Source: a virus. From it: a DNA stretch of 40,789 nucleotides. Location: positions 1-40,789 of IMG/VR virus record IMGVR_UViG_3300037104_000240; one strand, 5' to 3'. Below, piece after piece: positions 1 through 40,789 of the stretch (its first letter is position 1; every line of letters begins with the position of its first letter). A program made the translations under genes and the position numbers. The notes beneath the pieces are model-generated. The model saw only the letters and a list, made by a program, of their open reading frames with translations, was not told the DNA's origin and ran no database searches.

Positions 1-92
1 TTAAACTCCAGGATAATATCCTCGTGGGAATCCGAATCCTGCGAGAAAAAAACTTGGTCTTTCGTGAGAACAAAACTAGCGGGTTTGCACAT
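1..92 (-). CDS. Solenoid repeat protein, copy B: N-terminal fragment at contig start
   Basis: This is the 5' end of a minus-strand gene, beginning at the ATG complement at 90-92 and running off the window start. The visible residues start MCKPASFVLTKDQVFF and are identical to the start of the copy at 122-697. A Shine-Dalgarno sequence (AAGGAAG on the minus strand, about 101-107) precedes the ATG. The remainder of the gene is almost certainly the open frame at 40219-40789, since the map appears circular; about 93 bases (equivalent of 513-605) would then be missing between the contig ends. The protein has no assigned function. Confidence 0.75.
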   Translation of the reverse strand, partial: MCKPASFVLTKDQVFFSQDSDSHEDIILEF

Positions 93-127
93 AATTAAAA
101 ACTTCCTTTTTTGATTCTTTTTTAATT
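1..127. repeat. 127-base exact direct repeat, left copy (partner 606-732)
   Basis: Bases 1-127 are identical to 606-732. The identity starts at the first base of the window and ends where copy A's 3' end diverges from copy A's own upstream region. The repeat covers the ribosome binding site and first codons of the solenoid gene. Its length and its start at base 1 suggest that the contig was broken at an assembly repeat. Confidence 0.9.
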
Positions 128-697
128 TAGTTTTTTGCTGGAACCGTAGAACTCCGCCTTACCACCAGACACTTTTCCCTGGCTGGAACCGTAGAACCAC
201 GCCTTACCACCAGACACTTTTCCCTGGCTGGAACCGTAGAACCACGCCTTACCACCAGACACGGTGCCCTGGCTGGAACCGGAGAAATCTGCCTCACCAC
301 CAGACACGGTGCCATGGCTGGAACCGTAGAACCACGCCTTACCACCGGAGACTTTTACGGAACCAGACAACACAATGCGGGATTGCCCCTTCGATACTTC
401 GCCGGAAGTAATGAAGTGGGATTTTTTCCAGTCCTTGAGTTTAGCGCGTGTGCGTTTCTCATCGGTTTTAGCATCAAACCAATCGGGCTTTAAATCCTGA
501 TCGACTTTGAAATACCACTTTGATAAAGGCAGCCGATAATCCTCTTTAGGTGGAACAATTTCCACCTGTAGAAGCACGATTTTTTCATCCGTGTTGGGAG
601 TTAGCTTAAACTCCAGGATAATATCCTCGTGGGAATCCGAATCCTGCGAGAAAAAAACTTGGTCTTTCGTGAGAACAAAACTAGCGGGTTTGCACAT
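122..697 (-). CDS. Gly/Ser-rich solenoid repeat protein, copy A (5 repeat units)
   Basis: A 191-residue protein. I chose the ATG at 695-697 because AAGGAAG lies 9-10 bases upstream and copy B begins at the same Met; an in-frame start 26 codons further upstream (775) is less supported. Residues 1 to about 110 form a charged globular domain (SFVLTKDQVFF, KWYFKVDQDLKPDWFD). From about residue 112 come five 15-residue units of the type VSGGKAWFYGSSQGK, ending in KKLN. The repeat period and alternating small/aromatic pattern suggest a beta-solenoid like other short Gly-rich repeat proteins of bacteria and phages. There is no signal peptide or membrane segment. It lies in the early minus-strand arm, directly upstream of a second copy. 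Function unknown; surface recognition or assembly scaffolding are guesses. Confidence 0.8.
   Translation of the reverse strand: MCKPASFVLTKDQVFFSQDSDSHEDIILEFKLTPNTDEKIVLLQVEIVPPKEDYRLPLSKWYFKVDQDLKPDWFDAKTDEKRTRAKLKDWKKSHFITSGEVSKGQSRIVLSGSVKVSGGKAWFYGSSHGTVSGGEADFSGSSQGTVSGGKAWFYGSSQGKVSGGKAWFYGSSQGKVSGGKAEFYGSSKKLN
137..361 (-). repeat. 45-base tandem repeat, 5 units (copy A)
   Basis: Five units start at 137, 182, 227, 272 and 317, each encoding 15 residues. Variation is concentrated in a few codons: Ala-Trp, Ala-Glu or Ala-Asp before Phe; Tyr-Gly or Ser-Gly; and Gln-Gly-Lys, Gln-Gly-Thr or His-Gly-Thr. The unit next to the globular domain (317-361) has a distinct end (ACTTTTACGGA on the plus strand) shared with the other two loci. 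Confidence 0.95.
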
Positions 698-2201: not shown

Positions 2202-2942
2202 CTAAAGAACCCTTTCAATCCAGTCCTCTTTAAATTGAACGAGAGCCAGTACATGTTGTTCTTCTATCATCCCAGGATTTTTCTTTATCCTGAATTTGTA
2301 GGCCGATGTTGGAACATGCTTTAAAACCGTAAATTGGGAACCATGAAACTGCCAAGTGAAACAATGCTCCTTGGTTGCCTTCTCAAACCCTTCAAGGTTT
2401 CCTGTCTTATTCAGTTTCCATTCGTAATCAGCCGCTATGTATTGACCTGCTTCATACTCAAAAATCGTAAATTGAAGCGTTCCCATGTTTCGGACGAAAA
2501 CCACAACCCGCAAATCATCGTACTGGTTAAGCGACTGATTCACCCGTTCATTCCAAATACCCAACACGGCGTTTCCTGTTTTTTGAATGTCGGCGTGTGG
2601 GTCGCTTATTCCATAAGAATAATCCGGGGAATTTCGCCCACTGATAAGCCTTACCCCTGGAACAGCAAAAGGCCGTGTTGCTTGGATTGTTTTAACTGAC
2701 CAGGAGCAGTTATTCCACCAAACGTCCGTTACTCCTAAAGGCTGGTTGTAGTATTCGCCGCTTATGGCTTTGGCAAAAATTCCGGCAAAATCGTTGCCCT
2801 CAATATTGGCATGTCCTACGGCGATTCGATGAACTATTGAGCGCCCTATGCTGATAATAACGCTGTCTGGAAATTCTCCTAACGGATAAAGGCTTTCACG
2901 CCCTTCTTGATTTCCTCGCAATCTTGGAGGCTTTGAGGACAT
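2202..2942 (-). CDS. Putative type II restriction endonuclease
   Basis: A 246-residue protein encoded directly behind, and overlapping by 47 bases, a C5-cytosine methyltransferase; this is the classic arrangement of a type II restriction-modification pair. Around residues 70-86, GVTDVWWNNCSWSVKT contains an Asp (D73) and an S-V-K (K84) like the degenerate PD-(D/E)XK core of many restriction enzymes, preceded by acidic residues (E65, D51). There is no signal peptide or membrane segment. It should cut unmethylated DNA at the site protected by its partner. The identification rests mainly on context and the motif; the recognition site is unknown. Confidence 0.7.
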   Translation of the reverse strand: MSSKPPRLRGNQEGRESLYPLGEFPDSVIISIGRSIVHRIAVGHANIEGNDFAGIFAKAISGEYYNQPLGVTDVWWNNCSWSVKTIQATRPFAVPGVRLISGRNSPDYSYGISDPHADIQKTGNAVLGIWNERVNQSLNQYDDLRVVVFVRNMGTLQFTIFEYEAGQYIAADYEWKLNKTGNLEGFEKATKEHCFTWQFHGSQFTVLKHVPTSAYKFRIKKNPGMIEEQHVLALVQFKEDWIERVL

Positions 2943-3906
2943 TTATTATTCCTTGGATTCCGACTGTCACTAAAGGCACGGGAACTGCATTTCCGGCTTG
3001 CTTCCTAGTTTGGCTATCGTTACAAACGATCTCAAAAGACTCAGGGAACCCTTGAAGCCTTAACATTTCCCTTGGGGTCAACCGTCTTTTTCCATCAACC
3101 AGCAAGTAATTATAAGACGCACCAGCCCGAAGCGCACACGAAAAAGGATGGCTGGAAATATCACCGCCCTTGTTTTCGTGCCATATTCCTGGCTTAAATT
3201 CAGACTCGTGGGCTTGTTGTCTACGTTTTAAAATCCTCTCACTTACAAAATGAGATTTATTAGGATTTTTTTCTAAGACTTCGTTCAATGGCTTCATGGG
3301 AACAGTTTGTGAAGGCCAAGGAAAAACGTCAAACGGTTCGAGCGTTGCGGCAATAAGTACCCGCTCTCTTTTTTGTGGTAGGCCAAGCTCTAAGGCATTT
3401 AGAACCTTCCAAGAAACACAGTAGCCAATATCTTCCAATTCGGCCACTATCCGCTTTATAGTTTTACCCCCGTCATCGGAGGTTAATTGCTTCACGTTCT
3501 CTAATAGAACAGCTTTAGGCTTTTTAACCCTTAGAATACGGGCAATTTCAAAAAACAACGTTCCCCGTATATCCGCAAAACCTTTTCGGCTTCCGATAAT
3601 CGAGAAAGGTTGACATGGAAACCCCGCTAAAAAAAGATCGTGATCGGGTACGTCCTCTGCTTTGATTCTGGAAATGTCGTTAGCTGGTTGAATCCCAAAA
3701 TTATGCTCATACGCTTTCCTAGCCTCGCTGTCTATGTCACAAGCAAAAACACATTCCATTCCGAAAGAGCTAGCGGCATAGTGAAAGCCGCCGATTCCGC
3801 AAAACATGTCAACGTATCGGGTCAATCCGCTTAGATGTTTGGGAGGATTTTTTAAAGCCGTAACAGTTTTCACCATTGCGGCAAAACCTGGAATTTTATT
3901 AGTCAT
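2896..3906 (-). CDS. DNA (cytosine-5-)-methyltransferase
   Basis: A 336-residue protein with C5-methyltransferase motifs in order: I (DMFCGIGG, 33-40, AdoMet binding), IV (GFPCQPFS, catalytic Cys98), VI (ENV, 136-138), VIII (QKRER, 178-182), a target-recognition region of about 205-265, then LRLQGFPESF and X (GNAVPVPLV). All key residues are present, so it should be active. It transfers a methyl group from AdoMet to a cytosine in its target and so protects DNA from the adjacent endonuclease. Its ATG overlaps the transposase stop by eight bases, so it is probably co-translated from the transposase promoter. The target sequence cannot be read from the protein. Confidence 0.93.
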   Translation of the reverse strand: MTNKIPGFAAMVKTVTALKNPPKHLSGLTRYVDMFCGIGGFHYAASSFGMECVFACDIDSEARKAYEHNFGIQPANDISRIKAEDVPDHDLFLAGFPCQPFSIIGSRKGFADIRGTLFFEIARILRVKKPKAVLLENVKQLTSDDGGKTIKRIVAELEDIGYCVSWKVLNALELGLPQKRERVLIAATLEPFDVFPWPSQTVPMKPLNEVLEKNPNKSHFVSERILKRRQQAHESEFKPGIWHENKGGDISSHPFSCALRAGASYNYLLVDGKRRLTPREMLRLQGFPESFEIVCNDSQTRKQAGNAVPVPLVTVGIQGIINVLKASKIARKSRRA

Positions 3907-4882
3907 GGATTAACTCTTTGTAAGTAAGTTTTTTGCCAAGCATGCCAGCCACTAAAACACGGACGAAGGTAATTCCATGAGAGCCTTCAACCATATCGAC
4001 GGCCGGAAGGTTTCTTGTATTTTGGCGAAAAGAAAATTCATCCACGTATTTTTGAAGATGTTTGAAGCTCAAGTTGTGGAAGGTTCCATAATGCCCACGC
4101 TTTAACAAAGCCCAAAAACTTTCAATTCCGTTAGTGTGCGCCATGCCCTTCACATATTCTCCTACTCCATGATTAACCGATTTATGGTTGTAGCCTTTAA
4201 GCCCAACATAAGAGCGGTGTTCGTCCGTGTAAAGGTTAGCACCTTTAGCAACATTATTTTGAACATTGAAGGCAATTGTGTTTCCCTCTGTGTTTGGAAT
4301 AACGGAAGCCCTGGTTTCGCCGTCCCTGTTTCTCGCTCCAAACACGATAGCCTTTCCGACACCGCCCCGGCCCAAGTGAAGTCTTTTATTCCGGTGTTTG
4401 TTCTTTTCTTTCCCGCCGATATAGGTTTCATCGGCTTCGACCGTACCGCCAATCTTCCCTTCAATTTTACAAGAAACACGGATTCTTCCAAGCACATGCC
4501 ATGCCGACTTTTGGGTGATTCCTAATTCCTTGGCAAGCTGGATAGATGAAATTCCTTTTCTGGAAGTGCTGACTAGATACATGGCATAAAGCCAAGTGCG
4601 AATAGGAAGCTTTGAATCTTCCATTACCGTTCCAGTCCTAATCGTAAATTGTTTCCGGCAAGCTTGGCAAGTATAAAGCTTCCCATCTCGAATTTTGTAA
4701 ACTACGTCATGCCCACAATGGGAGCAACGAACGCCACACGGCCAACGACCTGATTCCACGTATTCCCTTGCGGCCTTTTCATCTGGGAACCGCTTCATAA
4801 AATCGAATGTGCTTGGTTGGGTTATCTTGACGAATTTCTTGACTACTTTCATACTTGGCCTCTTTTCGTGTGTTTTCTTCAT
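3899..4882 (-). CDS. IS1595-family transposase (ISXO2-like, DDE type)
   Basis: Up to 327 residues. An N-terminal zinc ribbon (C53, C56, C72, C75) is followed by a helix-turn-helix segment (SIQLAKELGITQKSAWHVLG) and a DDE core: D151 in VEADETYIGG, D220 in LYTDEHRSY, E254 in NGIESFW, with K261. These are the hallmarks of the ISXO2/IS1595 transposase domain. The ATG at 4880-4882 would be nearly leaderless given the promoter at 4889-4916. Met-11 (4850-4852) has AGAGG six bases upstream and is the likelier start, giving 317 residues. The frame is intact. Confidence 0.95.
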   Translation of the reverse strand: MKKTHEKRPSMKVVKKFVKITQPSTFDFMKRFPDEKAAREYVESGRWPCGVRCSHCGHDVVYKIRDGKLYTCQACRKQFTIRTGTVMEDSKLPIRTWLYAMYLVSTSRKGISSIQLAKELGITQKSAWHVLGRIRVSCKIEGKIGGTVEADETYIGGKEKNKHRNKRLHLGRGGVGKAIVFGARNRDGETRASVIPNTEGNTIAFNVQNNVAKGANLYTDEHRSYVGLKGYNHKSVNHGVGEYVKGMAHTNGIESFWALLKRGHYGTFHNLSFKHLQKYVDEFSFRQNTRNLPAVDMVEGSHGITFVRVLVAGMLGKKLTYKELIHD

Positions 4883-9083: not shown

Positions 9084-9157
9084 ATTGTTGGCTCTTTGTT
9101 TAATAATTTGGTATTCTTATCAAGGCAAACTACCATTGCGATTTTAAGGAGAGGTTG

Positions 9158-10009
9158 ATGAAAAAATTCTTGTTCTCGATTTTCTTTTTGAGTTTGTTCA
9201 TTCCGCTTTTTGCTTTTGGCCCTCCTAGTCCGCCTAATCCTCCTCCACCAAATTCCGTGAATATTTTTGCCATCAATCAACCTATTGATTATTCCCGGTC
9301 TGTATTTTATATTCCAACCACTCAAGCGACATTGATGCCACAAAGTGTTGGGGGTTATCCCGCAACAATTGCTTCTGGAAATTTAAAATGTTGGTGGCCT
9401 ACCCAAACTCCGGTTGGGTCTTGGACTGCGCTCCCGACTTCAACTCTGACTTCAACCAGTACCGCTACTCCAACTCCAACCGGTTCATGGATAGCAACAG
9501 CAACAGCCGCCAATGCTACTGCTAGTTGGACTCCAACTCCTACCAATAGACCTACATTATCTCCTTGGAGTGATGATACAAGTTTTGAAGCTGTCACAAT
9601 TGTTAATAGGTCCAGTACTTCTGTTACAATTTTAAGAGCGAAAGGAAAATATGCAAGAGTTCATCCAGGCCGTACTAATCCGATTCTTCTTTTTCCATCG
9701 AGTGTGTCTACTTATTATCCGACTCCAACAGCAGTCATCTCAAATACTCCTAATCCAATTTGGACTCAATCGTATTTGACTCCTACTCCAACAAGAACCA
9801 ATACGCCCACGAATACATGGACGAACACTGCCACCAATACGCCCACGAATACATGGACGAACACTGCCACCAATACGCCCACGAATACAAGGACGAACAC
9901 TGCCATCAATACCGCTACGAACACTCCGACGAACACAACCACGGCTACACCAACACAAACTTGTAATCCTGCTATTACCCCGAAATGCTATAACCAAATT
10001 ATGGGGTAG
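9158..10009 (+). CDS. Secreted Thr/Pro/Asn-repeat protein 1
   Basis: About 283 residues. The ATG at 9158 follows AAGGAGAGG; a TTG one codon earlier is possible. A clear signal peptide (MKKFLFSIFFLSLFIPLFAFG) is followed by a Pro-rich stretch, a region with TPTPTG repeats, a short globular segment (about 150-200: FEAVTIVNRSSTSVTILRAKG) and a C-terminal TNTPTNTWTNTAT repeat block. The globular part resembles a short beta-sandwich motif seen in packaged decoration proteins. A signal peptide is odd in a gene placed between terminase and portal, because virions assemble in the cytoplasm. It may be exported to modify the infected cell surface. Two similar genes lie at 30297 and 31381. Confidence 0.7.
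   Translation: MKKFLFSIFFLSLFIPLFAFGPPSPPNPPPPNSVNIFAINQPIDYSRSVFYIPTTQATLMPQSVGGYPATIASGNLKCWWPTQTPVGSWTALPTSTLTSTSTATPTPTGSWIATATAANATASWTPTPTNRPTLSPWSDDTSFEAVTIVNRSSTSVTILRAKGKYARVHPGRTNPILLFPSSVSTYYPTPTAVISNTPNPIWTQSYLTPTPTRTNTPTNTWTNTATNTPTNTWTNTATNTPTNTRTNTAINTATNTPTNTTTATPTQTCNPAITPKCYNQIMG
9800..9907 (+). repeat. 36-base tandem repeat, 3 units
   Basis: Units at 9800-9835, 9836-9871 and 9872-9907 encode 12-residue NTPTNTWTNTAT-type repeats. The third unit shares a 31-base identical stretch (9875-9905) with 31104-31134 in another secreted-protein gene. Confidence 0.9.
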
Positions 10010-30296: not shown

Positions 30297-31202
30297 TTGA
30301 AAAATTATTTATTCGCTCTCATCCTGTTAATGCCTTGTATTTCTAATGCCCAATTCAATGTGAATGGGGCTTATAATTCTACGGCAGTATCAATATACGT
30401 TTACCCTCAATCATCTTATCCGACTCTTCCGATTCTTTCGCATTGGTGGGATTCCACTCTTTACGGAGGAGATATTGGAGATTGGATTTATGATTATTCT
30501 TATGAAGATGTTCAAATAAATACAATCACCAAAAGAGTGAATGGCCCTAATGGGAAACTGTCTGATCTTTTAAATGTTACAAGAGCGCAAAACGGAACAA
30601 AAGCAAGTAATAAAGGTTCAGGGAATACCGATACTTATTCGATGTTTCTTTTTTATATTCCAACAATCACTTCTACTCCAACATTGACATTAACCCCAAC
30701 AATTACACCAACCCCCACAATAACAATAACACCGACTATAACTTATACTGATACAATTTCTGAAACTTTTACCCCGACTTTCACTAAAACGATTTCTCCA
30801 ACCCAAACTCCAACTTTGTTTTCGTATTTGCAGAATATTGATTTTAATGTTCAACAAATAGCAAAAGTATTCATAACTCTTACAATTACTCCAACAGCCA
30901 CTCCAACGGCCACGCCTACGAATACAACGACTTATATTCCATCAGATACGCCAACTAATACACCCACAGAAACACCAACCGATACACCAACCTATATACA
31001 TACGAATACTGCAACCTACACACACACGAACACGGTTACCTATACGCCTACGGATACGCCGTCCAACACCGCTACATACACACCAACAGCCACTCCAACG
31101 GCCACGCCCACGAATACAAGGACGAACACTGCCACAAATACGCCAACTAATACACCAACGGCTACTCAAAATTGTACGACTACCACAACACCAAGTTGTT
31201 AA
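30297..31202 (+). CDS. Secreted Thr/Pro/Asn-repeat protein 2
   Basis: A 301-residue protein starting with TTG (30297), ten bases after the previous stop. It has a signal peptide ([18 protein letters not shown]), a domain of about 100 residues with aromatic residues ([23 protein letters not shown]) and a long low-complexity C-terminal half rich in TPTxTPT and TNTPT repeats. DNA repeats in this half match those of the gene at 9158 (31 identical bases). The Thr-rich tail could be glycosylated or act as a stalk. Role unknown. Confidence 0.65.
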
Positions 31203-31267: not shown

Positions 31268-31384
31268 ATGAAAGAACTTTTTCCTTTATTCTTCGATTTC
31301 TTTTTTCTGCCCTGTTTTGCCGTAATTTCTTTTTTAGTTATCTTTTGGATATGTGAAATCATAGCGGAGACAATTACGAAATGA
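31268..31384 (+). CDS. Very small membrane protein (38 aa)
   Basis: The ATG at 31268 has a strong AGGAGG five bases upstream. The 38 residues begin MKELFPLFFDFFFLPCF, continue as one long hydrophobic helix (VISFLVIFWICEII) and end in TITK. Its stop overlaps the next gene's ATG (ATGA). The size and single membrane helix fit a small holin, antiholin or membrane regulator, but position alone does not decide. Confidence 0.7.
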   Translation: MKELFPLFFDFFFLPCFAVISFLVIFWICEIIAETITK

Positions 31385-32337
31385 AAAAAAGATTACTGTT
31401 TTTTTTTATTATTTGTGGGATTTCCTCAAGCATGTATGGAGCGATGCCTTATGATGTTTCGGGGTTAACGCTTTATATCAATCCTGATACGCTTTCATTG
31501 GCCGATAACTCTCCTGTGTCAACTATCACAGACCAGTCATCCAATGGTTATGTTTTTTCTCAATCTGTTTCCTCTCATATGCCGATTTTAAAATATCAAT
31601 ATCTTAATGGGCATTCGGTTTTAAATTTCAGTAATCCAGTGAGTCAATTTTTAGGAGCTTCTATTTCAGAGACGGCAGTCATGGCTACTACAGCGAATAC
31701 TTGCTGGTTTATTTTTAACACAACCAACAACGACCCATCTGGTGGAGCAGGGATGTACTTTTCCATAAATCCCCTTATGACTTTCCATTTGAGTGCATAC
31801 GACTCAGGGTCAGTTATCTACTTGGAGTTTCCGTGGCATGCATTAACGGCCAACGAACCAACGACAAATGTTTGGCACATATTTACAGGCCACCAAAAAA
31901 AAGACGGAGGGACATTAAGTATTGATATTGATGGAACTCAAATCGGTTCTGGGTATTATGCCGGAACTTTGACTTTATCTGGAGCCACATCGATGTTTTT
32001 AGGGGGATTTAATCCAGTTGGACAGTATGGATACGACGGGAAGATGGGGCCTTTTCTTTGGTACGCGTCAGACCAACAGCACGGAAGCTCGGATTACAAT
32101 TTAGTCTATAATTGGCTGAACAATACTTGGCTTGAATCTCCTCCCTCTCCGACTCCAACTAATACACCGACTAATAGCCCTACCAATAACTTCACACCCA
32201 TTCCAACAAATACCCCGACTAATACTCCTACGTTCTCTCCGACTAACTCCCCAACTAACACTCCCACAAGCACACCCACAAACACTCCCACACCCATCCC
32301 AGTAAGATTTATGATGCTTTTGGGTGTTGGGAAATGA
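31381..32337 (+). CDS. Secreted LamG-like lectin with Thr/Pro/Asn stalk (protein 3)
   Basis: A 318-residue protein. A signal peptide (KKRLLFFFIICGISSSMYG) is followed by a concanavalin A/LamG-like domain at about residues 24-240 (GLTLYINPDTLSLADNSPVS, ...GHSVLNFSNPVSQFLGAS, TLSIDIDGTQIGSGYY, YDGKMGPFLWYAS). The C-terminus is a TPTNTPTNSPTN-type repeat stalk ending in VRFMMLLGVGK. LamG domains bind glycans, so this may be an exported glycan-binding protein that masks or blocks receptors on the infected cell, or a virion appendage. Its stop overlaps the next gene's ATG. Confidence 0.7.
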   Translation: MKKRLLFFFIICGISSSMYGAMPYDVSGLTLYINPDTLSLADNSPVSTITDQSSNGYVFSQSVSSHMPILKYQYLNGHSVLNFSNPVSQFLGASISETAVMATTANTCWFIFNTTNNDPSGGAGMYFSINPLMTFHLSAYDSGSVIYLEFPWHALTANEPTTNVWHIFTGHQKKDGGTLSIDIDGTQIGSGYYAGTLTLSGATSMFLGGFNPVGQYGYDGKMGPFLWYASDQQHGSSDYNLVYNWLNNTWLESPPSPTPTNTPTNSPTNNFTPIPTNTPTNTPTFSPTNSPTNTPTSTPTNTPTPIPVRFMMLLGVGK

Positions 32338-33911: not shown

Positions 33912-34211
33912 ATGGTTTACATGGCAGCAACACCGGCGACACCGGTAACACCAACGCCTATGGAGATAATTCCGACTCCCGCTCCCGCGTCTAAACCGAT
34001 TTCATTTTGGGCGCACCTTGGGGCGATATGCGTCACTGTTTTGGGTCTCGCAAGCGCGGTAGCTTCCGTTTTGCAATTGGTACCGCTTCCGCCTCATGTT
34101 GGGCTTATCATCGCAGGCGTGGGGACAGTCACCACGCAAATACTTCATCTTTGTGGAGTGACTCCTCCCACTCCGAAACAAGCGGCTGATGAAGTTGGAA
34201 TAAAACTTTGA
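33912..34211 (+). CDS. Holin-like small membrane protein
   Basis: A 99-residue protein with AGGAGG five bases before the ATG. A Pro/Thr/Ala-rich N-terminus is followed by two membrane helices (WAHLGAICVTVLGLASAVASVLQLV and HVGLIIAGVGTVTTQILHLCG) and a short charged tail. The size, two helices and position among the lysis genes fit a class II-type holin. Its stop overlaps the patatin start (TTGA). Confidence 0.65.
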   Translation: MVYMAATPATPVTPTPMEIIPTPAPASKPISFWAHLGAICVTVLGLASAVASVLQLVPLPPHVGLIIAGVGTVTTQILHLCGVTPPTPKQAADEVGIKL

Positions 34212-35083
34212 AAGCTGGTATTTTCTTTGGCGGCGGTTCGTTTATTGCGCTTCATTGCGGCTACTGTGCTGGACCCCTTAATGGCGTGGCTTTTGATCGC
34301 TTGTATGGTGTTAGTTGTGGTAGTCTTTGGGCTTCCCTTCTTGGTTTTGTGGGCCGTGATAAAGGGGTGGAAATTTTACGGTCCATAAAAAATACTTCAG
34401 ATATTTTCGAACAAAAAGATATTTTTGCAGATATAGGCGATACTGTAGGACGCAGATGGGCTTCTATTCCAACAGGTTTCAATTATTCTCCACTTCGGAA
34501 GTTAATTCAGAAATACATCATTGGAGTTCCAACTATTCCCGTAACGGTTTATACCGTAAATCTCGAAACTGGATATGGATTGCACATTACTGCTATGCCG
34601 GATGGAACTTATCAAACAGATCGCCCTGAAATGGGAGAAATCAAACTCATTGGAGATTTTCAAGATAAACTGCTTTCTTCTTGCTTGGTTTATCCTATTG
34701 TTGATGCTTTTCTTGACAAACAAAATAGGGGATGGATTGATGGAGGTTTCCGAGAAGGCGGTCCGGTTGTTAAAGCTTTGAATGATGGAGCCTCCGAACT
34801 TCATATTTGTTTAACTGGTATGTATTCTGAAGATTGTCATTTTTTAGGAAATGCGAATGATGTTTTGAGTGGAGTGACCAGAGAACTTGAAATCATGGCC
34901 AACCAGAATGTTATCGGGGCCGTTAATATGGCTTTATATTGCAATCCCGTAGGAACTTTGATTTACCAAGCAAAGCCTCAAGGCTCGAGTGAAGTCTTTA
35001 TTCCTTCTGATATTTTGGAGAATATCGAGATAGGGAAAAACACAATTCCTACAGTTGGGCCATCAATTCAGATCATTGATTGA
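34208..35083 (+). CDS. Patatin-like phospholipase
   Basis: A 291-residue protein starting with TTG at the previous stop. The oxyanion GGG motif (FFGGGSF, 8-10), the nucleophile elbow GVSCG (S36) and the catalytic DGG (D178) are all present, the order and spacing of patatin Ser-Asp hydrolases. It probably hydrolyses membrane phospholipids. Directly behind the holin-like gene at the end of the late operon, it could help disrupt the envelope at lysis or act on host lipids. There is no signal peptide. It is rarely seen in phage lysis cassettes. Confidence 0.88.
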   Translation: MKAGIFFGGGSFIALHCGYCAGPLNGVAFDRLYGVSCGSLWASLLGFVGRDKGVEILRSIKNTSDIFEQKDIFADIGDTVGRRWASIPTGFNYSPLRKLIQKYIIGVPTIPVTVYTVNLETGYGLHITAMPDGTYQTDRPEMGEIKLIGDFQDKLLSSCLVYPIVDAFLDKQNRGWIDGGFREGGPVVKALNDGASELHICLTGMYSEDCHFLGNANDVLSGVTRELEIMANQNVIGAVNMALYCNPVGTLIYQAKPQGSSEVFIPSDILENIEIGKNTIPTVGPSIQIID

Positions 35084-37051: not shown

Positions 37052-38203
37052 TTAACCTTTGAAAGTTTTCCAACAAGAAGCGTAGTACGGGTGCATTTTA
37101 GATTGTGCATCTAACCCAAGTGTCTTGAAATAGGCATCAAGCTCTTGGCGTGTCTTACACATATCCATATCGCTGTTGATTTCGCTTTCGATTGGAGGGG
37201 TAGGTTTATGTTGGTAGCCTTTGCGTTTAAAGGCCGTTTTTTTAGGACTTCCTTCTTCCAACGCTGATTCATCGGATTGAGGTGATTTTGCCTCATTCTC
37301 TATTGGTTTAGAGGATAAACGAGCCTCTTCAACGGCATGTTGGTATGGTGATACTCCACCTTTTGACACTATTTCTGCCTGTTTCTTGAGTTCCTCCAAT
37401 TTTGACTTTTCTTCAGGTGTGAGTTCTGGCTCAATATCAATGGTTTTTGAAAGACGGCTTGATGTGGTTTGAGGTTGAGTAACTTCTATTACTTGGCCAT
37501 CTGGGTATTCTTGGACCTCTCCGGTTTCTAGGTCAATAATGCCTTCGTCTTTACGAATCGCATTTTGCATTTCAATAGAAAGAACACCGAATTTTGCCAA
37601 TCCATTCTTGGTAACAGTCTTTAAAGCCATTGTATTAAAATCGGTTTTCCATAGGCCGCTTCCGCTTTTATATATTTGACTGTACCTTTTGGCATGGGCT
37701 TCGATTTCGTCTTTTGTCAAGTAAAAGAATTTTTTGAACCCGTTTAGGAGTTTGAAATAGAGAAGATAACCCACTACTTTTTCGCTGGACTTTTGGTCTT
37801 TAAATTCCATGTCGCCGGTGAAGCGGTCATATTTTACAATCTGTCCTTCATAAATGATGACCGGGTTAATTGTTTCATACTGGCCTGATCTAAGGGCTAA
37901 TTGGACATACCCCTTCCAACCTAATTGAAACTGGGCCACGCCACTATAAGGGATAATGTAGGCTTGTGCTAAAGAGGGATTGATAGGTAAATCCAAGCTC
38001 GCAGCCACTAAAGCCGCGCTAATAACACTCATAGGTTCACAAGCTCCCAATGCCTTGTTTGTTTTATAAGCTGAAATAACACTCGAAATGAATTGGGGAG
38101 CTTTTTTCCCCAGGACTTCATTAAATCGCTTTTTGATTGAATCCCGGGCAATGAGTTTTTCAATCCTTGTTTCTGCCACTTGTAAATCTTTATTCTCCGT
38201 CAT
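37052..38203 (-). CDS. recT: RecT single-strand annealing protein
   Basis: A 383-residue protein. The segments FISSVISAYKTNKALGACEPMSVISAALVAASLDLPINPSLAQAYIIPY and QFQLGWKGYVQLALRSGQYETI are the signature of RecT-type annealing proteins. The C-terminal 150 residues are charged and less conserved, with an unusual extra region. It anneals complementary single strands exposed by the exonuclease encoded just upstream (14-base overlap). AAAGGAG precedes the ATG. Together they form a two-gene recombination system. Confidence 0.93.
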   Translation of the reverse strand: MTENKDLQVAETRIEKLIARDSIKKRFNEVLGKKAPQFISSVISAYKTNKALGACEPMSVISAALVAASLDLPINPSLAQAYIIPYSGVAQFQLGWKGYVQLALRSGQYETINPVIIYEGQIVKYDRFTGDMEFKDQKSSEKVVGYLLYFKLLNGFKKFFYLTKDEIEAHAKRYSQIYKSGSGLWKTDFNTMALKTVTKNGLAKFGVLSIEMQNAIRKDEGIIDLETGEVQEYPDGQVIEVTQPQTTSSRLSKTIDIEPELTPEEKSKLEELKKQAEIVSKGGVSPYQHAVEEARLSSKPIENEAKSPQSDESALEEGSPKKTAFKRKGYQHKPTPPIESEINSDMDMCKTRQELDAYFKTLGLDAQSKMHPYYASCWKTFKG

Positions 38204-39116
38204 TGTTTTCTCCTTTTTCCCAATAGATTCTGAACATTCTTCCTGCTTTCCTGTTCACTGTATAACTCGATTCCTTTGTCTCGGATAAGACAATGGAAAA
38301 TCCATTTCCAACAACTTTTTCAGCATCGCCAACTTTCATTAAAAGTTTTGCCTTGATGCTGTCCTTCATTTTCTTGGCGATGGTTTCTTGTTCTCCGAAT
38401 GCTTTGTATTCTTGGGTAAGGGAGAGATAATCCAACTGTTCGCTAACATCAACAACTTTATCTTTTGTTGCAGTGTTAAATAATTCAGCGATAAAACAAG
38501 AGTCTCGTTCAAAGTTTGGCTCAGGTTCTTTATTTTCTTTGATCGATTCCAAAAAGTCCTCGCACTTTTCGAGTATCGCTTTGTGGATTTTTTCATCAGC
38601 TTTCCTTTCTATGACTTTCGGATTGTTACCACCCACCAAAGCTCCTAAATATAATGTATCAATACCCGAAACTAACATTTCATGCTGGCATTGAAGCTCG
38701 TAATAAACGGGAGCCTGTAAATCTTCCCCATCAAGAAGCCAACCATTCTTGAATGCGAGAGAATCAACGTTTTTTATTTCCAAGAGCGCTCTGGGCATTA
38801 AAATTTCATAATCAAAAGATGAACCAATACCTAAACCTTCAAGTCGGATATACTCTGTTTTTGGCTTAATGCCCCATTCTTTATCTTCGGCTATACCATT
38901 TGCGATACTCTCTTGAAGTCTTTTACCCCATTTCATGCGGGTATTTTCCTCAAATTGCCCCAAGTCTTTATTTTTTTTTCGGTGCCATAGCTCAAATGCC
39001 GTGAGCCACGGATTGATACCAAACAATGCCGATATTTCGGTTGAGGTTATATCCTTGGCCCGTTCAGTCAGCCAAGCTTCTTTCGTAGTAAATGGAATTA
39101 CCTGTCTTTTCATCAT
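38190..39116 (-). CDS. YqaJ-like (lambda-type) exonuclease
   Basis: A 308-residue protein. WLTERAKDITSTEISALFGINPW, MKWGKRLQESIANGI, IGSSFDYEILMPRALLEIKN (the catalytic D...E-x-K core) and YYELQCQHEMLVSGI are the conserved motifs of the YqaJ viral recombinase/lambda exonuclease family. It degrades duplex DNA 5' to 3' to provide single strands for RecT. Two adjacent Met codons lie at the start with AGGAG just upstream. Confidence 0.92.
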   Translation of the reverse strand: MMKRQVIPFTTKEAWLTERAKDITSTEISALFGINPWLTAFELWHRKKNKDLGQFEENTRMKWGKRLQESIANGIAEDKEWGIKPKTEYIRLEGLGIGSSFDYEILMPRALLEIKNVDSLAFKNGWLLDGEDLQAPVYYELQCQHEMLVSGIDTLYLGALVGGNNPKVIERKADEKIHKAILEKCEDFLESIKENKEPEPNFERDSCFIAELFNTATKDKVVDVSEQLDYLSLTQEYKAFGEQETIAKKMKDSIKAKLLMKVGDAEKVVGNGFSIVLSETKESSYTVNRKAGRMFRIYWEKGENNDGE

Positions 39117-40218: not shown

Positions 40219-40789
40219 TTAATTTAGTTTTTTGCTGGAACCGTAGAACTCCGCCTTACCACCAGACACTTTTCCCTGGCTGGAACCGTAGAACCACGCC
40301 TTACCACCAGACACTTTTCCCTGGCTGGAACCGGAGAACCACGCCTCACCACCAGACACGGTGCCCTGGCTGGAACCGGAGAAATCTGCCTCACCACCAG
40401 ACACGGTGCCATGGCTGGAACCGGAGAACAACACCTTACCACCAGACACGGTGCCATGGCTGGAATCGGAGAAATCTGCCTTACCACCAGACACGGTGCC
40501 ATGGCTGGAATCGGAGAACAACACCTTACCACCAGATACGGTGCCATGGCTGGAACCGTAGAACAACACCTTACCACCAGACACTTTTCCCTGGCTGGAA
40601 CCGTAGAACAACACCTTACCACCGGAGACTTTTACGGAACCAGACAACACAATGCGGGATTGCTCCTTCGATACTTCGCCGGAAGTAATGAAGTGGGATT
40701 TTTTCCAGTCCTTGAGTTTAGCGCGTGTGCGTTTCTCATCGGTTTTAGCATCAAACCAATCGGGCTTTAAATCCTGATCGACTTTGAAA
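40219..40789 (-). CDS. Solenoid repeat protein, copy B (9 repeat units), 5' end outside the window
   Basis: The frame is open from the window end (FKVDQDLKPDWFDAK) through KKSHFITSGEVSKEQSRIVL to nine 15-residue units and the KKLN end. It is the second copy of the gene at 122-697, with nine units rather than five. Its 5' end is most likely bases 1-92. The unit alphabet is richer than in copy A, with Val-Leu before Phe and Ser-Asp in place of Tyr-Gly in several units. One nucleotide difference (40664; Gly to Glu) marks it as distinct from copy A. Function unknown. Confidence 0.8.
   Translation of the reverse strand, partial: FKVDQDLKPDWFDAKTDEKRTRAKLKDWKKSHFITSGEVSKEQSRIVLSGSVKVSGGKVLFYGSSQGKVSGGKVLFYGSSHGTVSGGKVLFSDSSHGTVSGGKADFSDSSHGTVSGGKVLFSGSSHGTVSGGEADFSGSSQGTVSGGEAWFSGSSQGKVSGGKAWFYGSSQGKVSGGKAEFYGSSKKLN
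40234..40638 (-). repeat. 45-base tandem repeat, 9 units (copy B)
   Basis: Units start at 40234, 40279, 40324, 40369, 40414, 40459, 40504, 40549 and 40594. The last (40594-40638) is the boundary variant next to the globular domain, shared with 317-361 and with the single unit at 1669-1713. Units differ by small clusters of bases rather than by random single changes. Confidence 0.95.

Follow-up and report, generated by a model that had tools for sequence, protein, structure and literature searches.

The window analyzed here is the whole of IMG/VR virus record IMGVR_UViG_3300037104_000240 (positions 1 to 40,789; 40,789 bp), which carries three copies, A, B, and C, of a repeat-encoding sequence, all on the minus strand. 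Copy B (122 to 697) encodes 191 amino acids (aa) starting MCKPASFV; its start was assigned from the Met-Cys opening conserved in the family and a GGAAG ribosome-binding site upstream. The protein consists of a conserved N-terminal domain of about 95 aa (N-domain; 404 to 697, from a 47-sequence alignment) followed by five 15-residue units, encoded by an array of five 45-bp units at 128 to 352. Copy A (40219 to 40789) is the 3′ part of a second such gene, truncated by the contig end, and its array (40225 to 40629) holds nine units. Copy C (1654 to 1854) has one unit (1660 to 1704) and an unrelated transmembrane-like N terminus, and it is probably a remnant. With that N terminus and a TTG start it may not be a functional gene, and it was rejected as firm evidence of a third one.

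Positions 606 to 732 are an exact duplicate of positions 1 to 127, with a mismatch directly after, and the right contig end (the last 125 bp, 40665 to 40789; no strand assigned) is identical to 388 to 512. Because the contig ends duplicate the sequence of copy B in this way, A and B are tandem neighbors, and a long-distance relation between them was ruled out. The three neighboring loci described in the first-pass annotation are therefore one tandem pair, joined across the contig ends, plus a remnant, the third locus, at a distance of about 1 kb. On the simplest reading, the duplications fit a de Bruijn assembly break at k~127 between near-identical tandem gene copies, and the circular order would be copy B, 29 bp, and then copy A downstream. 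In a circular genome, about 93 bp common to both copies would be missing between 40789 and 1, and positions 1 to 92 (minus strand; an exact copy of 606 to 697, inside the 127-bp match) are probably the 5′ part of copy A beyond the junction. Gene A would then be complement(40219..40789 + ~93 missing bp + 1..92), encoding 251 aa. Alternatively, the genome may be linear, or the contig may represent a mixed population differing in copy number.

The same annotation had counted one 45-bp unit in 1, 5, and 9 copies, with flanks identical at the DNA level. The counts agree with ours for C, B, and A, although those for the 225-bp and 405-bp arrays come from a short-read-style assembly and may be off; Tandem Repeats Finder scores for the window arrays (321 and 524) were far above chance. 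Flank identity is exact between A and B, over 125 and 127 bp, whereas copy C has only a 59-bp block in common with A and differs in its N terminus. Numbered as distinct DNA units, copy A reads 1-2-3-4-5-6-7-8-9, copy B reads 10-6-8-8-9, and copy C is unit 11. Units 6, 8, and 9 are exactly common to A and B and occur in the same order, and unit 10 resembles a mosaic of other units. The proposal that units are drawn from a small alphabet was upheld, with few alternatives at each position: K/E; AW, AD, AE, or VL; YG, SG, or SD; Q/H; and K/T. GTCTCC opens the first unit in all three copies, the final unit is the same in A and B, and the interior differs. Constant ends around a differing interior are what would be left by exchange inside the array.

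The N-domain was first met in three gut phage records, among them that of Dulem virus 35. Its near-invariant residues in the 47-sequence alignment are C2, S6, H23, E46, P49, D66-Q67-D68, P71, and W73. The window protein matched no Pfam, PHROGs, or NCBIfam family above the curated cutoff or with a convincing E value, the N-domain had no Pfam match above the cutoff in 47 members, and no description of it turned up in the literature searches. Searches of the PDB by sequence and by fold returned nothing significant, best fold matches included, while a BFVD fold search matched two uncharacterized phage proteins and tblastn on plasmids gave only weak matches to pentapeptide proteins. A resemblance of the Met-Cys N terminus to Ntn hydrolases or SRAP found no support in any search.

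The repeat fold suggested by the first-pass annotation was recovered by structure prediction. AlphaFold2 modeled copy B with a mean predicted local distance difference test score (pLDDT) of 92.6, from an 18-sequence alignment, and copy A with a mean of 88.5, with no alignment supplied. DSSP assigned strands in every 15-residue unit of both models. The arrays are confidently predicted to form a regular β-solenoid with one strand pattern per unit. Pfam matches below the cutoff were all weak (LbR_Ice_bind, Bactofilin, B_solenoid_ydck, and pentapeptide repeats); these solenoid and repeat families resemble the window protein in their short turns, but none reaches the cutoff for it.

Three scans of IMG/VR found 20, 49, and 52 N-domain loci and one scan of GTDB genomes found 4, with overlap between scans; the three IMG/VR scans combined gave over 100 loci. 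Most of these relatives carry tandem repeats with unit lengths unlike that of the window. Their C-terminal modules are repeats of 8, 9, 19, 20, and other residue lengths, a few nonrepetitive sequences, or a DUF6273 lectin (Pfam). The DUF6273 C-type lectin module is present in 22 loci, in one clade. In a quick N-domain tree, built from 101 columns and with many forks unresolved, the lectin rows formed essentially one group within the repeat rows (2 changes, support 93), and the window grouped next to locus L033. Among the relatives of this phage by major capsid protein (L084 to L094, 68 to 81%), whose records are mostly partial, the N-domain was not found. In five relatives (L056, L063, L062, L049, and L017) the N-domain carries 19- to 20-residue repeats that are leucine-rich or leucine-rich-repeat-like by eye. 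A single contig, IMGVR_UViG_3300031111_000008, encodes two paralogues, L037 and L039, that lie about 7 kb apart and have identical N-domain proteins but 8-residue arrays that differ.

The first-pass annotation had also proposed diversification by recombination between units. In three pairs of contigs from relatives, 7.7 to 9.8 kb of flank, N-domain included, contained 0 mismatches while the arrays differed. The difference was 48 bp (2 units) in L011/L013 over about 7.7 kb compared, 162 bp (6 units) in L099/L100 over about 9.0 kb, and 68 bp, with a frame break, in L044/L048 over about 9.8 kb. Judged from prefix and suffix lengths, the ends of the deletions have 36, 100, and 0 bp in common, respectively. 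A further pair, L040/L042, was identical, array included, and array differences among L017/L018/L027 and between L127/L128 were excluded because the flanks diverge. Diversification by gain and loss of units is well supported in the relatives, and together with the mosaic unit of the window it bears the proposal out to that extent; recombination would be the probable cause.

The lectin branch points to a second route of diversification. A template repeat/variable repeat (TR/VR) pair of a diversity-generating retroelement (DGR) was found in 18/22 lectin loci, with the TR copy of the 3′ variable repeat lying about 500 to 600 bp downstream. Between 8 and 17 of the 9 to 20 TR/VR mismatches per locus fall at template adenines. 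Reverse transcriptase (RT) was found in 16/20 lectin records searched, and among the 11 lectin loci with scanned neighbors, RT and Avd were each present in 9. RT (PF00078) was found in 0/32 repeat-type records. The four lectin loci in which no TR/VR pair was found belong to the very four records that lack RT; the remaining lectin loci are therefore real DGR targets. Those four loci (L129, L141, L079, and L028) are DUF6273-type and give the impression of having lost the retroelement. tRNA-His guanylyltransferase, GmrSD-type restriction, and transposase genes recur in the flanks of L110 to L141, beside DGR-bearing loci. The window itself gave 0 matches in the RT search (PF00078), as the first-pass annotation had stated, and no TR/VR pair with adenine-specific mismatches was present at its genes, where all long direct repeats are accounted for by the gene copies and the units. 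A DGR in the window was rejected on these two counts. The contrast with retroelements drawn in that annotation proved apt, relatives that carry the N-domain being DGR targets themselves.

We favor, with a probability of about 0.6, the explanation that these genes encode early two-part phage proteins, in which a constant N-domain is joined to a swappable, diversified recognition module, here a solenoid changed by unit recombination. Copy B and then copy A would encode early, probably cytoplasmic proteins made of the ~95-aa N-domain and a C-terminal recognition module. In the solenoid of 15-residue units, some residues are fixed and others drawn from the small alphabet. Whole units would be added, removed, and reshuffled as near-identical units recombine, both inside an array and across the tandem copies, while in the related clade the same N-domain carries a DUF6273 C-type lectin diversified by the retroelement (RT, Avd, TR, VR). 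The design common to the two module types points to a changing ligand for the module, probably a macromolecule of the host or of a rival phage that is encountered early in infection; the N-domain would perform a constant job. The role of the protein would be intracellular, perhaps in counterdefense or in competition with other phages.

Several observations weigh against this explanation. Searches of IMG/VR with the window protein and with its array alone returned no relative that has the same 15-residue unit. Gain and loss of units were seen in relatives, and variation within the population of the window phage itself would be an extrapolation from them. The contig pairs may be reassemblies of related samples, and the array difference of L044/L048 breaks the reading frame. 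The window's own arrays show no nonsynonymous excess: their ratios of nonsynonymous to synonymous variation (pN/pS) are 1.01 and 0.7, with synonymous variants making up 5/16 and 4/12. Because the lectin loci form essentially a single clade, the exchange of modules may have happened just once.

The genomic setting bears on where the proteins act. Copies A and B lie on the strand of the RecE, RecT, and integrase genes and upstream of them (RecT-like and RecE-like genes, 37052 to 39116, minus strand, downstream of A; PHROGs phrog_148 and phrog_434), and the opposite strand carries the capsid and terminase genes. The families of these neighbors suggest that A and B are early genes, away from the virion operon. 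β-Solenoids are frequent in tail spikes, and a receptor-binding or virion-decorating protein, with the solenoid on the particle and unit changes altering binding to the host or to surfaces in the manner of phage tail fibers, is an alternative. DUF6273 DGR targets of gut phages are, moreover, usually taken as receptor-binding or capsid-decorating (PMC10743442, PMC11792537). We consider this alternative unlikely. A and B sit beside recombination and integration genes and apart from capsid and tail genes, the neighbors of 20 relatives are mainly integrase, HNH, recombination (Sak4, RecT, SSB), and repressor genes, the Dulem virus 35 gene comes after repressor genes, and no structural gene family is among the commonest neighbors of the DGR-branch loci that were scanned. 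A virion role found no support in this setting.

Equally improbable, in our judgment, is neutral repeat expansion, in which ordinary slippage or recombination acts on a tolerant C-terminal tail that plays no diversified part in binding. A pN/pS near 1 in the window's own arrays would suit it, as would the broken frame of L048, and loss of units is expected of any tandem repeat. Across 43 arrays of the family, however, 45 synonymous variants were counted versus 268 nonsynonymous ones, where the synonymous fraction expected was 0.246 (P = 7e-6, from counts that are not all independent). Twenty-eight of the 43 arrays had no synonymous variant at all, against 130 nonsynonymous ones, and changes across the family were confined to few unit positions. 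Many arrays keep their invariant codons identical in DNA sequence while a few codons toggle, for example, TAC/TGC/TTC or GAC/GGC. A tolerant tail is also hard to reconcile with the confidently predicted regular fold or with a DGR-diversified lectin on the same N-domain in one clade. For the N-domain itself, the ratio of nonsynonymous to synonymous substitution rates (dN/dS) was 0.07 to 0.31 in aligned pairs that differ; L099/L101 was excluded as out of register, L101 beginning inside the domain. The contrast between the family arrays and the N-domain counts in favor of the recognition-module explanation.

Less likely still are assembly artifacts of collapsed tandem repeats as the source of the array differences in relatives and of the window unit numbers: the window contig does break exactly within the repeated flank, many relatives' contigs end inside arrays, and a collapsed repeat likewise yields unit-length differences with homologous ends, but the L011 array (about 120 bp, in the only one of the three pairs with an array short enough) can be spanned by one typical short read, the paralogous arrays L037/L039 and window A/B differ in unit content and not in number alone, and unit variants exist independently of assembly across the array.

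The explanation of a constant N-domain with a swappable recognition module has parallels in known systems. DGRs with DUF6273 C-type lectin targets have been described (PMC10743442, PMC11792537; survey in PMC8144416). Like these systems and BPP-1 Mtd, the lectin relatives are complete DGR targets, with VR at the 3′ end and TR, Avd, and RT downstream, and share a constant N-terminal part and a variable C-terminal module. The window differs from the DGR/DUF6273 systems in having no RT and in its module, which is a tandem-repeat solenoid and not a C-type lectin. The closest functional analogue would be the HNWD NOD-like receptor (NLR) sensors of Podospora (het-d, het-e), in which near-identical units, each with few hypervariable sites under diversifying selection, are gained, lost, and shuffled by unequal exchange (PMC12222747). 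Near-identical units with few variable sites and unit gain, loss, and shuffling are the points of likeness. Array length polymorphism between close relatives may have a counterpart in the three identical-flank contig pairs, which represent relatives and not the window array and may derive from related samples. HNWD units are WD40 repeats in a fungal NLR, and the likeness would be in working only; no sequence relation is claimed. NeuO of the CUS-3 prophage, an acetyltransferase phase-switched by strand slippage of a 7-bp unit (PMC3046976), is likewise encoded on a phage, has a variable number of in-frame tandem repeats, and is β-helical, but a 7-bp slippage switch differs from a binding surface built with an alphabet of units.

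A broader proposal, which we put forward tentatively and hold to be less probable than the explanation above, is that one intracellular effector domain serves as a platform for two interchangeable engines, a DGR acting on a C-type lectin and tandem-unit recombination acting on a solenoid. The products might recognize variable host defenses or rival phages early in infection and would then be the phage equivalent of variable immune receptors. In bacteria, antigen sensors diversified by DGRs have been proposed (PMC10907252). Two diversification routes would in this way be joined on one conserved, uncatalogued phage domain, and both sit in early, apparently nonvirion genes, where diversification of phage proteins would hardly be expected. 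The natural arrays offer a large set for testing tandem-repeat shuffling as a working alternative to retroelements for variable protein surfaces.

Other features of the window were noted. C-5 cytosine methyltransferase and IS1595-family transposase genes lie in tandem at 2896 to 4882 (minus strand), a few kilobases from copies B and C. A second repeat system is found in late-strand genes at 9155 to 10009, 30297 to 31202, and 31381 to 32337, which share PTPTNTPT-type Thr/Pro repeats at the DNA level with 12- to 72-bp periods. Close to lysis-type genes, positions 34208 to 35083 encode a protein with a GVSCGS motif that is patatin-like by eye.
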